DNA from: Ignavibacteria bacterium
GTDB taxonomy: Bacteria; Bacteroidota; Ignavibacteria; Ignavibacteriales; SURF-24
DNA: 64,000 nucleotides
Direction of reading: 5' to 3'
Assembly (NCBI GenBank): GCA_025612375.1
Contig: JAAXKN010000002.1
Span: 62,001 to 126,000, forward strand
Below, piece by piece: positions 32,398-38,969 of this stretch. The translations under genes were made by a program, and so were the position numbers. The first letter of the stretch is position 1, and each line of letters starts with the position of its first letter. Under the pieces are notes generated by a model, which worked only from the letters and a program-made list of their open reading frames with translations, was not told where the DNA came from and ran no database searches.

Positions 32398-33024
32398 TCA
32401 GCTTGTCTTTTCAGCTGACCTGACGAAATAAATTACCTTTTCCAGTTCGCCCAGCAGGTCCACGTTATTAATAAATGTCTCCGAGGTGCCTTTAAGCTTA
32501 AAGGGAGCAAAATTCAAGACTCCCTTAATTCCTGCGGAAATCATTGCATCGAATGCTTCCTGTGCAAAGGCTTCTGTAACAGCCAGAATGCCGATCTTAA
32601 TGCCGTTGTTAATAACAAAATCCTTCAGCTCATCAAAAGGGTATACGGGAATAATTCCTTCCCGGTTTATCTTCTCCGGATCGACATCAAAAGCCGCAGT
32701 GATCTGTATGCCTTCGCTTTCAAATCCCTTATATTTCAGAAGCGCACTGCCGATATGCCCGGCGCCCAGAATAACGGCTTTCTGAACCACGTCCTTGCCG
32801 AGTATACTGTTAAGTTTGGCCAGGAGCTCATCGATCTGATAGCCGCCCCTGCGGTAGCCTGAAATTCCAAATACTGAGAAATCTTTTCTAACCTGAGCCG
32901 AAGTAAAACCAGCTGCGTCAGCGAGGTTTTCAGAGAAGACCCTCTTAAAACCTAATATTCTAAAGCGCAGTAATATAGATTTATATTTCAAAAGCCTGAT
33001 AACTGAATGATTACTTCCAAGCAT
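32398..33024 (-). CDS. rex: Redox-sensing transcriptional repressor Rex, copy 2
   Basis: 208 residues. The winged helix contains AAGFTSAQVRKDFSVFGISG and the NAD(H) loop is VILGAGHIGSALL. The N-terminal 60 residues are almost identical to copy 1 (both HS-IRLLKYKS-LLRFRILGFKRVFS), so copies 1 and 2 come from a recent duplication. Placed between hydA and the TrxL-hydS-phosphatase genes, on the same strand. A 12-bp-stem hairpin lies between hydA and this gene, so partial transcriptional separation is possible. Normal Rex length, no damage seen. Confidence 0.93.
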   Translation of the reverse strand: MLGSNHSVIRLLKYKSILLRFRILGFKRVFSENLADAAGFTSAQVRKDFSVFGISGYRRGGYQIDELLAKLNSILGKDVVQKAVILGAGHIGSALLKYKGFESEGIQITAAFDVDPEKINREGIIPVYPFDELKDFVINNGIKIGILAVTEAFAQEAFDAMISAGIKGVLNFAPFKLKGTSETFINNVDLLGELEKVIYFVRSAEKTS

Positions 33025-33143: not shown

Positions 33144-35147
33144 TCAGTACTTCTTCAGTTCAGAGTCCATTACCTGGCAGGCTTTCTCCAGAGTGCACTT
33201 TTCAAGTGTATTCCCATTTATAGTAACCGATGGGCCGCGGTCGCACTGCTCGAGGCAGAAAGTAGCCTTAATGTCAACTTTCTCCTGAAGATTATTGTCA
33301 TCGACGTGATCGATGAGCTTATGCAGGAGGTCCTGCGATCCCTTAAGATAGCAGCTCGTTCCGACGCAGACGCTGATCTCGAGCTTGTTTTTCTCAGAGC
33401 CTTTAAGGAGTTCTATGTCAACGTCCGAAACCCTGCGCCTGCTGCTATAAGTTGTATGCAGGAGGCTGTGGGCCTTAGGGCTGCCGGCATATTCGAGCGT
33501 TGTGTTATAGGCTTCCTGAACAAACGGGTTATCCTGTGATTTATGAATCTGAAGGTTCTTGTCGGCCGAATACAGGCCTGCTGTTCTTTTTTCCTTAACG
33601 CTCATTTCAAAAGTGACCGGCTGACCCGCGCCGCCGATGCAGCCGTTGGGGCATGACATTACTTCAATAAAGTCGTACTTGCACTCTCCCCTTTTTACTT
33701 TTTCCGCCATAGCGCGTGCGTTCTTAAGTCCGTGCACTACTGCAACGCTGATATTTGTGCCTGCGATATCGAGATTTACCTCTCTGAGGCCTTCTGTGCC
33801 GCGTACTTCATGGAAGTCCACGTGTTCGAGCTTTTTCTGCGTCAGCTTTTCGTAGACAAACCTGAGAGCCGCTTCCATAACGCCGCCGGAATTTCCGAAA
33901 ATGACTCCTGCCCCGGTCTTAAAGCCAAAGGGCATGTCGAGCGATTCGGGCTCCAGGCTGTTAAAGATAATGCCTGCCTGGTCTATCATGCGTCCTAATT
34001 CCTGTGTTGTCAGTACATAGTCCACATCCGGCGAGCCGTCTTTTGAAAATTCAGGGCGCCTTGCCTCAAATTTCTTTGCCGTGCAGGGCATAATTGAAAC
34101 GACTATTAGATCTTTCCTGTCGCGGTTTAATTCTTTTGTAAGGGTTTCCTTTGCCAGAGATCCGAACATCTGCTGCGGTGAGCGGCAGGATGAAAGGTTC
34201 GGCAGGAGGTCAGGGAAATACTGTTCTGCAAATTTAACCCAGCCCGGGCAGCAGGAGGTAAACTGCGGGAGTTTTTCTCCTGTTTCAATTCTTTTAATGA
34301 GCTCATTAGCTTCTTCAATAATGGTGAGGTCAGCTGAAAATGAGGTATCAAAGATTTTGTCGAAGCCGATTATCTTAAGAGCCGCGGCGATCTGACCGGT
34401 AGCATCAACGCCGGGAGCCATGTTGAACATTTCGCCAATTGCCACTCTTACTGCAGGGGCGATCTGTGCAATTACGGTTTTGGACGGGTCGCTAATTGCT
34501 TTCCAGACATCATCGATTTCAGATTTAGGAGTAATGGCGCCCGTAGGGCATACTCTTGAGCACTGGCCGCAGTCGATGCATTCAACCATTTCGAGGTCCT
34601 TGCCGAAGGCAGGAAGCACGGCGGCGTTGGAGCCGCGGAATGCAAAATCAATGGCACCGATAGACTGAATTTCGCTGCAGGCGCGCACGCAGTCGCCGCA
34701 TAAAATACATTTATTAGGGTCTCTTACCAGTGAGTGTGTAGAAGTATCCAGAGGAACGGTCTGCTTCATCCTTTTGAATCTGACCTCTTCCACGCCGTGG
34801 CGCTTTGCAATGTCCTGCAGTTTGCAGTTAGAGCTCTTGGCGCATGTGGGGCAGTGGTGCTCGCCGTTGGCAAGGAGGAGTTCCAGCGTTATTTTCCTGA
34901 TTTCGCGGATTTCCTGCGTTGTGGTTTTAATTTTCATGCCTGCTTCGGGCTTTGTTGAGCAGGCGCCTATAATTCCCCTTCCTTCAAGTTCAACCAGGCA
35001 GAGCCTGCAGGCTCCGTAGACGCTGAGCTCCGAGTGGTAGCAGAAAGTAGGCAGATCTATGCCTGCTTTTCTGATTATCTCTAAAAGGTTTTTCTCGCCG
35101 TTAATCGGAATTTTTCTTCCATCTATAGTTAAAAAGTTATTTTCCAT
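33144..35147 (-). CDS. hydA: Catalytic subunit of trimeric NAD(P)-linked [FeFe] hydrogenase
   Basis: 667 residues. N-terminal [2Fe-2S] domain (Cys36, 47, 50, 63), His-ligated [4Fe-4S] motif (HHCPTCAKSSNC, 97-108), two [4Fe-4S] motifs (CILCGDCVRAC, CIDCGQCSRVCP), then the H-cluster domain. Catalytic motifs are complete: TSCCPGW (Cys299, Cys300), MPCTAKKFE (Met353, Cys355, Lys358, Glu361) and EVMSCPNGCIGG (Met497, Cys499, Cys503). An extra C-terminal thioredoxin-like [2Fe-2S] domain (~590-667) matches Thermotoga-type HydA. With HydB and HydC it should form a cytoplasmic electron-bifurcating or NAD(P)-dependent hydrogenase. The start is 1 base after the hydB stop. Confidence 0.95.
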   Translation of the reverse strand: MENNFLTIDGRKIPINGEKNLLEIIRKAGIDLPTFCYHSELSVYGACRLCLVELEGRGIIGACSTKPEAGMKIKTTTQEIREIRKITLELLLANGEHHCPTCAKSSNCKLQDIAKRHGVEEVRFKRMKQTVPLDTSTHSLVRDPNKCILCGDCVRACSEIQSIGAIDFAFRGSNAAVLPAFGKDLEMVECIDCGQCSRVCPTGAITPKSEIDDVWKAISDPSKTVIAQIAPAVRVAIGEMFNMAPGVDATGQIAAALKIIGFDKIFDTSFSADLTIIEEANELIKRIETGEKLPQFTSCCPGWVKFAEQYFPDLLPNLSSCRSPQQMFGSLAKETLTKELNRDRKDLIVVSIMPCTAKKFEARRPEFSKDGSPDVDYVLTTQELGRMIDQAGIIFNSLEPESLDMPFGFKTGAGVIFGNSGGVMEAALRFVYEKLTQKKLEHVDFHEVRGTEGLREVNLDIAGTNISVAVVHGLKNARAMAEKVKRGECKYDFIEVMSCPNGCIGGAGQPVTFEMSVKEKRTAGLYSADKNLQIHKSQDNPFVQEAYNTTLEYAGSPKAHSLLHTTYSSRRRVSDVDIELLKGSEKNKLEISVCVGTSCYLKGSQDLLHKLIDHVDDNNLQEKVDIKATFCLEQCDRGPSVTINGNTLEKCTLEKACQVMDSELKKY

Positions 35148-35148
35148 G

Positions 35149-37044
35149 TTAAACTCCAGTTATAGCATTTAATTTGCAAGCCTGAGCGCAGGCGCCGCAC
35201 TTAATACAGATTGATACGTTGATCTTGTGGGGCATTTTCCTTTCACCGGAAATTGCACCGACAGGGCATTTCTTTGTGCACACGGTGCAGCCCTTGCATA
35301 GTTCGGGATTGATTTCGGGGGCAACAAGGCTTTTGCAGTTCTTTGTAGAGCACCATTTTGAAACAACGTGTTCGGTATATTCCTTCCTGAAATGCTTCAT
35401 AGTTGAGAGCACGGGATTTGGAGCCGTTTTGCCGAGTCCGCAGAGTGAGCCTTTTTTAACCGCCAGAGCAAGCTTTTCCAGAAGTTCCAGAGTTTCAACT
35501 GTAGCCCTGCCTTCAATGATATCGTCAAGGAGTGCAAGCATCTGCTTTGTGCCCTCGCGGCAGAGTACGCATTTGCCGCAGGATTCATTCTGTGTAAACT
35601 GCATGAAGAACCTGGCAATTTTTACCATGCATGTCTGGCGGTTCATTACAACGAGGCCGCCGGAGCCGATCATGGCGCCGATTCCGGTAAGAGAATCAAA
35701 GTCGAGCGGCAGGTCGAGGTGCTCTTCTGTAAGGCATCCGCCTGAGGGCCCGCCAATCTGGACCGACTTAAAGCCGTCTTCAGCGAGTGTGCCGTCGTTG
35801 TTTGTTACGCCGCCGCCAATATTATATACTATTTCCCTGAGTGTTGTGCCGAATGGTACTTCAATAAGTCCGGTGTTTCTGACGTGTCCAGTAAGTGCAA
35901 AGGTTTTTGTGCCCGGGGACTTGGCGTTTCCGATTTTCCTGAATTCACCGGCGCCCATTTTAATGATAAGAGGTACCGTAGCCAGTGTCTCGACGTTATT
36001 TATAACTGTTGGTTTTTCCCACAGGCCCGACTGTGCCGGAAACGGAGGCTTTGGTGAAGGCATTCCTCTTTTGCCTTCAATTGAGGCGATGAGGGCTGTT
36101 TCCTCTCCGCAGACGAAAGCTCCGGCTCCTTCCATAACATGGACGCGCAGGCTTTTGCCGGATGCAAAGACATCATCTCCAAGAATGCCTGCATTTTCGG
36201 CGTCTTCGACCGCTCTTCTAATACGTTTAACTGCAAGCGGGTATTCAGCCCTGACGTATACATAAGCCTCATCGGCGCCGATAGCACGGGAGGCGATCAT
36301 AATTCCTTCAATTACGCTGTGAGGGTTGCCTTCCATAACGCTTCTGTCCATGAATGCTCCGGGGTCACCCTCGTCGCCGTTGCAGATGACGTACTTTTTC
36401 TTTTCCTGCTGGATGCGCGTAAGATCCCATTTTCTTCCCGTGGGGAATCCGCCGCCGCCGCGCCCGCGGAGTCCGGAGGCCAGGATCTCCTTGCAGATAT
36501 CTTCAGGAGATAAAGTTGTAAATGCCTTTCTTGCCGCAGCGTAGCCGCCGATTGAGATGTATTCATTTATGTCTTCGGGATTGATATGTCCGCACTGTTT
36601 TAAGACAAACCGGCTCTGCCTGGTATAGAAAGGGATGTCGCCGATGCCCTTGCACTTCTCTCCGCTTGAAGGATCCTCATAAAGGAGTCTTTCAACGGCC
36701 TTGTTTTCCTTTATTGTCCTGTCAACTATTTCTTTAACGTCTTCGGGTCTTACCTTGACATAAAGGAGTCCCAGGGGCTCAATTGTAACGAGGGGTCCCA
36801 TCTGGCAGAATCCCTGGCAGCCGCTTTCGGAGAGGAAGATGCCCTTGTGGTTTTCTTCAGGCTTAAGTTCAACTTTTACGTGCAGGCCGCTTTCGCGGAT
36901 ATAGTTAAGGAACGCGTTACGGACCTTCTCGGAGCCGTTTGCCATGCAGCCCGTACCGGCGCAGATAACGATCCTGAAATCGTTATACTTCAGGCTTTCT
37001 TTATATTGAGCGGCAACAGATTCCAGATTAATTGTTTCTTGCAT
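35149..37044 (-). CDS. hydB: NADH-oxidising flavoprotein subunit of hydrogenase (NuoF-like)
   Basis: 631 residues from the preferred start at 37044, which has GGAG 7 bases upstream; a longer frame to 37074 overlaps hydC more. Order: N-terminal thioredoxin-like [2Fe-2S] domain (CAGTGCMANGS, CQGFCQMGP), NuoF-type FMN/NADH domain (GLRGRGGGGFPTGRKW, NGDEGDPGAFMDR), the [4Fe-4S] motif SCGKCVLCREGT, and a C-terminal pair of ferredoxin clusters (CKGCTVCTKKCP, CIKCGACAQACK). This architecture is that of HydB in bifurcating hydrogenases, which exchanges electrons between NAD(H), ferredoxin and HydA. Overlaps hydC by 17 bases. Confidence 0.94.
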   Translation of the reverse strand: MQETINLESVAAQYKESLKYNDFRIVICAGTGCMANGSEKVRNAFLNYIRESGLHVKVELKPEENHKGIFLSESGCQGFCQMGPLVTIEPLGLLYVKVRPEDVKEIVDRTIKENKAVERLLYEDPSSGEKCKGIGDIPFYTRQSRFVLKQCGHINPEDINEYISIGGYAAARKAFTTLSPEDICKEILASGLRGRGGGGFPTGRKWDLTRIQQEKKKYVICNGDEGDPGAFMDRSVMEGNPHSVIEGIMIASRAIGADEAYVYVRAEYPLAVKRIRRAVEDAENAGILGDDVFASGKSLRVHVMEGAGAFVCGEETALIASIEGKRGMPSPKPPFPAQSGLWEKPTVINNVETLATVPLIIKMGAGEFRKIGNAKSPGTKTFALTGHVRNTGLIEVPFGTTLREIVYNIGGGVTNNDGTLAEDGFKSVQIGGPSGGCLTEEHLDLPLDFDSLTGIGAMIGSGGLVVMNRQTCMVKIARFFMQFTQNESCGKCVLCREGTKQMLALLDDIIEGRATVETLELLEKLALAVKKGSLCGLGKTAPNPVLSTMKHFRKEYTEHVVSKWCSTKNCKSLVAPEINPELCKGCTVCTKKCPVGAISGERKMPHKINVSICIKCGACAQACKLNAITGV

Positions 37045-37546
37045 AACTTTTCTCCATCTCAATAATTTGGTCAATCAAAGTTCCGGTTTTCTCGGGTGTC
37101 ATCTGTCCGTGAACCTCGTCATTTATCACCATAACCGGTGCAAGTCCGCATGCGCCGAGGCATGAGACAGTCTCAAGTGTAAAGAGCATATCGGGGGTTG
37201 TTCGGCGTTTTTCGTCGAGGTTGAGCTTTTCCATTACAACTTCGGCCAAAGACATTGAGCCTTTTACGTGGCAAGCCGTACCGTCGCAGACGCGGATTAC
37301 ATATTTACCTTTAGGTTCCAGGGCAAAGTGGGAGTAGAAAGTAGCTACGCCGTAAACCCTGGCAGGTGAAAGATTTAAGGAAGTGGCAACAAAGGTAAGT
37401 ACTTCTTCCGGCAGGTAGCGGTATTCCTCCTGCACTGCCTGCAGAATAGGTATCAGCTTTGCCGAGTCATTGGAATAACGGTCAAGAATCTCACAAACTT
37501 TCCCGAATTTCCTTGTCCGGCTGAGAATTTGCTTTTCGGCAATCAT
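37028..37546 (-). CDS. hydC: NuoE-like [2Fe-2S] subunit of hydrogenase
   Basis: 172 residues, NuoE/HndA family. An N-terminal helical bundle (LIPILQAVQEEYRYLPEEVLTFVA) precedes the thioredoxin-like [2Fe-2S] domain with ligands in CDGTACHVKG and SCLGACGLAPV. It is the small electron-transfer subunit of the hydCBA complex. It is first in the operon; the 129-base upstream region holds palindromes that could be operators. Its last codons overlap the hydB start, implying translational coupling. Confidence 0.94.
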   Translation of the reverse strand: MIAEKQILSRTRKFGKVCEILDRYSNDSAKLIPILQAVQEEYRYLPEEVLTFVATSLNLSPARVYGVATFYSHFALEPKGKYVIRVCDGTACHVKGSMSLAEVVMEKLNLDEKRRTTPDMLFTLETVSCLGACGLAPVMVINDEVHGQMTPEKTGTLIDQIIEMEKSYARNN

Positions 37547-37675: not shown

Positions 37676-38326
37676 TCATTCACCCTGTTTTATGGATTCA
37701 GCCAGTTTGCGTGTCAGAACGGCAAGGCTCGTGGCAAACTGTGCATTTTCAACTATTATATCCTCTGGCAGCCTGAGCATAACCGGTGCAAAGTTCCATA
37801 TGGCTTTAATTCCTCCTTCCACCATCATTTCTGCCACCGTTTGAGCTGCAGAGGCGGGGACTGTAATTATGCCTATATGTATGTGCATTCTTTCTGCCAG
37901 GCCGGTCATTTTTTCAACGGGCAGAACAGGTACCCCGCTTACCTCGGTGCCGATTTTACGCTCATCGTTGTCAAAAAGGGCAACTATCCTGATGCCGTAC
38001 TTTGTAAATTGTTCAAAACCGAGCATTGCAAGGCCCAGGTTTCCAACCCCGGCAAGAAAAGCGTCGCTGAGGTTATTCCAGTTGAGGTAGTCTTCAATTC
38101 CCTTGATCAGAGTATCTACGTTATATCCGACCTTGGGTTTGCCGATTATGCCGGTATATGCCAGGTCTTTTCTTACCTGTGTGGGATCCAGCTTAAGGTC
38201 CCCGGCAATCAGTGTAGTGGAAATCTCGTTTTTTCCCGCCTGGCGGGCGTGTTTAAGATATTGCAAATAAATAGGAAGCCTTCTAAGTGAAGGTTCCGGA
38301 ATGGGTTTTAATTCTTCTGTTGCCAT
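37676..38326 (-). CDS. rex: Redox-sensing transcriptional repressor Rex, canonical-type copy 3
   Basis: 216 residues, closest to typical Rex: winged helix with IAGDLKLDPTQVRKDLAYTG followed by KVGYNVDTLI, the NAD(H) loop AGVGNLGLAML, and IWNFAPVML. It diverges clearly from copies 1 and 2. Located 129 bases upstream of the hydCBA operon on the same strand. A 40-bp perfect palindrome covers the start codon and a Rex-box-like site lies 60 bases upstream, so autorepression is likely. This copy is the best candidate for direct hydrogenase control. Confidence 0.94.
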   Translation of the reverse strand: MATEELKPIPEPSLRRLPIYLQYLKHARQAGKNEISTTLIAGDLKLDPTQVRKDLAYTGIIGKPKVGYNVDTLIKGIEDYLNWNNLSDAFLAGVGNLGLAMLGFEQFTKYGIRIVALFDNDERKIGTEVSGVPVLPVEKMTGLAERMHIHIGIITVPASAAQTVAEMMVEGGIKAIWNFAPVMLRLPEDIIVENAQFATSLAVLTRKLAESIKQGE

Positions 38327-38362
38327 ATTTTAATCGAGAAATATTTCTCGATTAAAATATGG
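38323..38362. promoter_or_regulatory. 40-bp perfect palindrome covering the rex start codon
   Basis: Bases 38323-38342 are the exact reverse complement of 38343-38362, centred on AAAT/ATTT. The left arm contains the start codon of rex copy 3 (CAT at 38324-38326 on the + strand), so in mRNA the start and ribosome site would be inside a 20-bp stem if the whole palindrome is transcribed. It may be a dimer operator, a cruciform or a translation-blocking hairpin. Confidence 0.85.
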
Positions 38363-38364
38363 AA

Positions 38365-38405
38365 TTGTGAAGTGGTTGTCAATATATTGTGAAAGGGATT
38401 CACAA
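38365..38405 (-). promoter_or_regulatory. Candidate Rex operator(s) upstream of rex copy 3
   Basis: TTGTGAAAGGGATTCACAA at 38387-38405 has exact inverted half-sites TTGTGAA and TTCACAA, which match the published Rex-box half-sites, with 5 instead of the usual 4 central bases. A weaker match, TTGTGAAGTGGTTGTCAA, sits at 38365-38382. Both lie in the promoter region of rex copy 3, consistent with autoregulation. Confidence 0.6.
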
Positions 38406-38501: not shown

Positions 38502-38969
38502 TTAACTGACCGGGTAGCTGCCGCTTAGTCTGGCAAAAAATCCGTGGAATCTGTGTATGAAAGCGCTGTCTTTAAGGAACATAAAGGGGCAGTAGCCAGA
38601 AATAAAGTTAATGCCATGGGTTCTGCTGAAATCCTCCACCTGCTCAACTTCTTTTCCCTTGTCCCTCCCGTTATAGACCCAGACGTTTTTAACGCCAGTA
38701 GAATTGCACTCGTCCATAATAGTCTGAAGGGGAACAGCTGTGGTAAAGACCAGAGCGGCTTCAGGCTGAGGGGTAATTTCACTTACCTGGCCAAAGCACT
38801 TCAGGCCCTCGATTTCGGAAGCCATGGGGTTAACAGGAATAACGTCGTATCCTCTTGACTGAAACTCCCTGAAAAGATTACGTGTATAGTCTTTTTCACC
38901 TCTGGAGACGCCGATAAAAGCTATCCTTTTAAGGGAAAGAAAACGCTGGATTTGATTTATTGAGGTCAT
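38502..38969 (-). CDS. CoA-binding domain protein (YccU-like)
   Basis: 155 residues forming one Rossmann-type CoA-binding domain: RIAFIGVSRGEKDYTRNLFREF, YDVIPVNPMASEIEGLKCF and VKNVWVYNGRDKGKEVEQ. Related domains occur in acyl-CoA synthetases and in small stand-alone proteins of unknown role. No catalytic partner is nearby. It lies upstream of rex copy 3 on the same strand but is separated by a terminator-like hairpin and 175 bases. Confidence 0.85.
   Translation of the reverse strand: MTSINQIQRFLSLKRIAFIGVSRGEKDYTRNLFREFQSRGYDVIPVNPMASEIEGLKCFGQVSEITPQPEAALVFTTAVPLQTIMDECNSTGVKNVWVYNGRDKGKEVEQVEDFSRTHGINFISGYCPFMFLKDSAFIHRFHGFFARLSGSYPVS

Follow-up and report, generated by a model that had tools for sequence, protein, structure and literature searches.

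A 40-bp palindrome over the start codon of a hydrogenase-linked rex gene in Ignavibacteria probably holds a variant Rex operator

Introduction

A perfect palindrome of 40 bp covers the start codon of a rex gene in an Ignavibacteria genome, and the question is what it does there. The window analysed here is a stretch of 64,000 nucleotides within contig C2 of the 5.2-Mb assembly (140 contigs). The initial annotation named three possibilities: the palindrome could hide the rex start in mRNA, extrude as a cruciform, or bind a dimeric regulator that blocks transcription. According to the analyses described below, the palindrome is very probably an operator for Rex, the product of the gene immediately downstream, as judged from sequence.

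The palindrome and the genes behind it

The palindrome and the genes downstream of it are as follows.
38323–38362, no strand: 40-bp perfect palindrome
37676–38326, minus strand: rex, 216 aa, Arg-Lys recognition helix, wing GKPKVGY
37028–37546, minus strand: nuoE/hydC-like subunit
35149–37074, minus strand: nuoF/hydB-like NADH-binding subunit
33144–35147, minus strand: hydA, NADH-dependent [FeFe] hydrogenase group A6 (767.7 bits, cut-off 765)

The two arms (38323–38342 and 38343–38362) are 100% complementary with zero spacer. About 7e-8 palindromes of 20 + 20 bp are expected in 64 kb by base composition, and the next longest perfect palindromes in the window are 16 bp, which bears out the claim that such a loopless exact repeat is rare by chance. 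The start codon of this rex gene, the third copy, is indeed included: the A of the ATG is at 38326 on the minus strand, within one arm and at its outer end. An in-frame TAA two codons upstream means that the frame cannot start before this ATG. In the same-genus relative G001, whose Rex is 83–84% identical, a 26-bp perfect palindrome (TTAATCGAGAAAATTTTCTCGATTAA) is located at the same position near rex, so that an assembly artefact can be excluded for the core. The G001 palindrome stops just before the rex start codon, leaving the ATG outside; the outer 7 + 7 bp are absent, and conservation is limited to the core. The overlap with the start codon, like the outer 7 + 7 bp, is probably incidental. 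Judged from the two genomes available for the genus, the growth of the palindrome from 26 to 40 bp may be a product of chance or of the completion of an inverted repeat by template switching. No second copy of the 20-bp core was found in the 5.2-Mb genome, even when three mismatches were allowed.

The gene product shows the PF06971 (Put_DNA-bind_N winged-helix) and PF02629 (CoA_binding, NAD-binding) domains above cut-off, and is assigned to NCBIfam NF003994 'redox-sensing transcriptional repressor Rex' with 281 bits (cut-off 130). The nuoE-like, nuoF-like and hydA genes follow on the same strand. Four Rex genes are present in the genome. Three are in the window, with the wings GNRRGGY, GYRRGGY and GKPKVGY, and one is on contig C1, where a Rex with the wing GKPRIGY adjoins a second hydrogenase-like cluster. 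In Caldithrix abyssi (Cabys_3675–3679), rex likewise heads an NADH-dependent [FeFe] hydrogenase operon, and a candidate Rex site is located just upstream (PMC5317091). The layout is the same as here, but the site proposed there follows the textbook consensus, whereas the site in the window is of the TCGA type described below.

Between hydA (33144) and rex copy 2 (start at 33024, minus strand), a near-perfect palindrome (GTCCGCATTTTAATGCGGAC) is followed by a T-rich stretch (loci L031 and L030). G001 carries a different stem at this position (GTCCGTAC...GTACGGAC). Judged by sequence, it looks like a terminator retained through paired changes.

Similarity of the core to Rex operators

The following feature was assigned to the core.
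38333–38352, no strand: core operator ATCGAGAAATATTTCTCGAT, putative Rex-binding site of the TCGA dialect

The core is two-fold symmetric, belongs to the 18–20 bp class and has the half-site spacing of Rex operators (G5 to C18). The textbook Rex operator is TTGTGAANNNNTTCACAA, and its clostridial form is TTGTTAANNNNTTAACAA (consensus as quoted in PMC5317091 and PMC8457756). Ten of its 14 fixed bases are matched by the core, and the four mismatches are all at positions 2 and 4 and at the two positions that mirror them, where the outer TTGT is replaced by TCGA. The core was therefore filed as a variant and not as a textbook Rex box. It shares with the textbook operator the two-fold symmetry, the size, the equal half-site spacing, the bases G5 and A8, and the location at promoters of rex, hydrogenase and adhE genes. 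In the group of Rex proteins with Val/Thr48, the outer TTGT is instead replaced by TAAA.

A closer fit is found with the operator of Thermotoga maritima TM0201, whose complex with Rex has been determined (PDB 7WB3; PMC8836258). The half-site AATCGAGAAAT differs from the TM0201 half-site ATTTGAGAAAT solely at positions 2 and 4 (two of 11 bases), and the likeness is also seen between TTGAGAAAT and TCGAGAAAT. In that complex, Arg48 reads Gua5, Lys49 reads Gua7/Ade8, and Arg60 and Gly61 of the wing touch Thy4 and Thy3 in the minor groove (PMC8836258). According to the alignment to 5zz5 and 7wb3, the Arg-Lys recognition pair is conserved in the window Rex, whereas Arg-Gly at wing positions 60–61 is changed to Pro-Lys (Gly58-Lys-Arg60-Gly61 in T. 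maritima, Gly-Lys-Pro-Lys in the window). The window operator retains G5, G7 and A8, and has C instead of T at position 4. In T. maritima, position 4 is contacted by a wing residue that is changed in the window Rex, and the base at position 4 is changed too. The palindrome had been described as unlike a Rex box and much longer. The former is wrong in substance, given the Rex-box geometry and a half-site only two of 11 bases away from the one in the crystal structure; the latter applies to the outer 7 + 7 bp, missing in G001, and not to the core.

A search of 164 genomes of the order for the core pattern ATCGAGAAWWWTTTCTCGAT gave three places only: at the rex gene of the window, at rex of G001, and upstream of a gene for an 878-aa adhE product in G001 (controls gave none). 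The N-terminal part of the 878-aa gene matches bifunctional AdhE (PRK13805) with 708.8 bits over 436 residues. This is below the cut-off of 951, because the cut-off is set for the whole 872-residue protein and the scanned piece is incomplete. The adhE gene is a classic Rex target.

In the genome of the window, allowing up to three mismatches gave 156 matches; this is the background level, as the reversed control gave 163, and a wider regulon based on these matches was rejected. This leaves, in this genome, the exact match at rex and, at the Rex paralogue on contig C1, two one-mismatch sites that overlap each other; no other match is taken seriously. An adhE orthologue carrying the site was also sought in this genome and rejected, the best match reaching only 46%. 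In genome G004 (L098, about position 1500), a one-mismatch site, ATCAATAAATTAATATCGAT, is located upstream of sdhC, of succinate dehydrogenase/fumarate reductase.

The promoter and the predicted transcript start

The promoter elements predicted at the palindrome are as follows.
38377–38382, minus strand: predicted −35 element TTGACA, identical in sequence and spacing in G001
38354–38359, minus strand: predicted −10 element TATTTT, within the upstream arm of the palindrome
38345–38349, minus strand: predicted transcription start region, about 7 nt past the −10 element

The promoter TTGACA-17-TATTTT (38382–38354, minus strand) was predicted with 10 of 12 bases; its counterpart in G001, at an equal distance, is TTGACA-17-TATCTT. 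The transcript is predicted to start about 4 nt before the palindrome centre (within 5 nt), giving a rex leader of about 21 nt. No Shine–Dalgarno motif was seen in this leader; nuoE has AAGGAG. The spacing between the −10 element and the operator was taken from ten rex promoters, two of them from Treponema. The operator centre is located 11 nt past the end of the −10 element in five (L002, L003, L022, L009 and L010), and 13 nt past it in the others (L007, L012, L016 and the Treponema loci L044 and L048). Since the core sits directly behind the promoter and over the predicted start, it probably blocks transcription, and autorepression of rex by Rex bound over the start site is the most likely mode of action.

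In the 129-bp gap before nuoE, no second TCGA-type site is present among the matches listed, and only a weak promoter-like match was detected. The hydrogenase genes are therefore likely transcribed by read-through from the predicted rex promoter.

In genome G003, two rex promoters (L005 and L022) have a second operator in the spacer between the −35 and −10 elements, about 24 bp from the first.

Operator dialects at rex loci

The upstream regions of 131 rex loci were compared, of which 45 belong to the class with Arg48 and Pro60 (R48/P60) and 86 do not. With consensus motifs partly chosen on the same loci as were counted (six of the ten TAAAGA loci below are the exception), TCGAKA-n6-TMTCGA was found at 35 of the 45 R48/P60 loci, where shuffling gives an expectation of 1.3, and at two of the other 86. 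The Fisher p value of 2e-20 overstates independence, because the classes fall on few branches and the correlation amounts to about one event per dialect. Sites of the window type precede rex not only in G001 but also in other genera, families and phyla. In more distant relatives the TCGA half-sites are 14 bp apart (TCGA-n10-TCGA) and position 7 is G or T. When 34 TCGA-class sites are aligned, T3, C4, G5, A6 and A8 are nearly invariant. At ten of the 45 R48/P60 loci, no TCGA site was found upstream of rex; some of these adjoin hydrogenase genes, and they may lack a promoter of their own. Hydrogenase genes are located within about 2 kb of rex in 30 of 47 R48/P60 loci, and adhE in seven of 47.

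Two other dialects were observed. Bacteroidales Rex proteins with Val/Thr48 have TAAAGA-n6-TCTTTA at all ten loci, matching at 12 of 12 bases, with A at position 5. This motif was first noticed in L035, L037 and L038, and by eye in L039; the six loci fetched afterwards all match at 12 of 12. Rex proteins with a canonical-like wing have TTGTKA-n6-TMACAA at 17 of 31 loci (expectation 2.7). For the Bacteroidales Rex proteins with Ala/Thr48-Thr60 (wing GKTRVGY; L139–L168), no clear operator of the three dialects was found upstream of rex.

The operator dialect thus appears to follow the DNA-contacting residues of Rex, on few evolutionary events, and the TCGA dialect would belong to Rex proteins whose wing has Pro-Lys or Pro-Arg instead of Arg-Gly. 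The tree of the C-terminal domain shows three changes of operator class and five of protein class, too few for independent replication of the operator switch. A causal link from residue to base would rest on the T. maritima Rex–DNA structure and not on evolutionary replication.

At 14 of the 45 R48/P60 loci (for example L012, L013, L016 and L019), three half-sites follow each other at exact 14-bp steps. They form two overlapping operators with one half-site in common, on which two dimers could not be seated in the usual way simultaneously.

The same promoter contains another candidate site.
38387–38405, no strand: second inverted repeat TTGTGAATCCCTTTCACAA, just upstream of the −35 element

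This repeat resembles a textbook Rex box or a CRP/FNR box with one extra base, and the corresponding stretch of G001 reads TTGTGATGGATTTCACAA. In the whole genome there are just two exact matches to TTGTGA-n6/7-TCACAA. The repeat could be the real Rex site, with the palindrome serving another dimeric regulator. Its near-consensus sequence and its presence in G001 speak for this, as does the near-consensus box cTGTGAATCAATTCACAt upstream of the hydrogenase-linked rex of Caldithrix abyssi (PMC5317091). The R48/P60 class, however, is tracked over several phyla by TCGA and not by TTGT (35 against 7 of the 45 loci, with an expectation of 2.9 for TTGT). Moreover, the half-site geometry and the contacted bases of the palindrome fit Rex, whereas the TTGTGA box is one base beyond the consensus spacing. 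The upstream repeat could be a site for paralogous Rex proteins, such as copies 1 and 2 of the window, whose wings contain Arg, or for a CRP/FNR-type regulator. We regard a division of labour in which Rex uses the upstream box and another protein the palindrome as quite unlikely.

Action in RNA or as a cruciform

In a transcript from further upstream, the palindrome would form an 18-bp stem that holds the ATG (−26.3 kcal/mol, z −7.8), and read-through is conceivable as the upstream gene (38502–38969) is on the same strand. The predicted rex transcript, however, starts near the palindrome centre and is left without a stable hairpin (z +1.1), so that hiding of the start codon is unlikely. The conserved palindrome of G001 stops short of the rex start codon, its copy at adhE precedes the adhE start codon by about 150–190 nt, and many relatives have the site 30–100 nt ahead of rex. 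An mRNA hairpin as the function of the palindrome is thus highly unlikely; a strong hairpin over the ATG in any read-through transcript is possible as a side effect. It is extremely improbable that the palindrome acts as a cruciform or is a functionless by-product of a mobile element or of assembly: a loopless AT-rich palindrome of 40 bp is of the kind able to extrude and its outer 14 bp lack conservation, but it is single-copy in the genome, an independent genome and distant relatives carry its core at an equivalent place in the promoter, and the core recurs at adhE in G001.

Among the three possibilities named at the outset, the dimeric regulator that blocks transcription is thus retained, while the mRNA hairpin and the cruciform were rejected. 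The initial annotation had also taken a transcription start inside the palindrome, combined with absence from relatives, as grounds against a function. The start is predicted to lie inside; absence from relatives does not apply, since the core is present there.

Proposed mechanism and implications

The Rex family is known to respond to NADH. For the Rex operator proposed here, we infer binding, repression, the NADH response and read-through into the hydrogenase genes. At a low NADH/NAD+ ratio, the Rex dimer would occupy ATCGAGAAATATTTCTCGAT, which adjoins the −10 element of the TTGACA-17-TATTTT promoter and covers its predicted start site. Bound Rex would stop transcription of rex, and probably also of the nuoE-nuoF-hydA hydrogenase genes. 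When NADH releases Rex, the NADH-consuming hydrogenase would be made. The hydrogenase genes behind rex are thus probably under NADH-responsive control.

We are inclined to think, with some reserve, that at least three Rex dialects (TTGT, TCGA and TAAA) are set by helix residue 48 and wing residues 60–61, which would let paralogues in the same cell (four here) run separate NADH-responsive gene sets without cross-talk. In the literature searched, no motif was found described for hydrogenase-linked R48/P60 Rex, and a search for a link between TATCGAT and Rex gave nothing relevant. We propose the TCGA motif for these paralogues. The correlation offers a testable recognition code in which residue 48 of Rex would go with base 5, and wing residues 60–61 with base 4. 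A search for Rex targets that relies on the textbook consensus would overlook the TCGA dialect; in Ignavibacteria, Treponema, Clostridia and Bacteroidales, NADH control of hydrogenases and adhE would then be overlooked as well.
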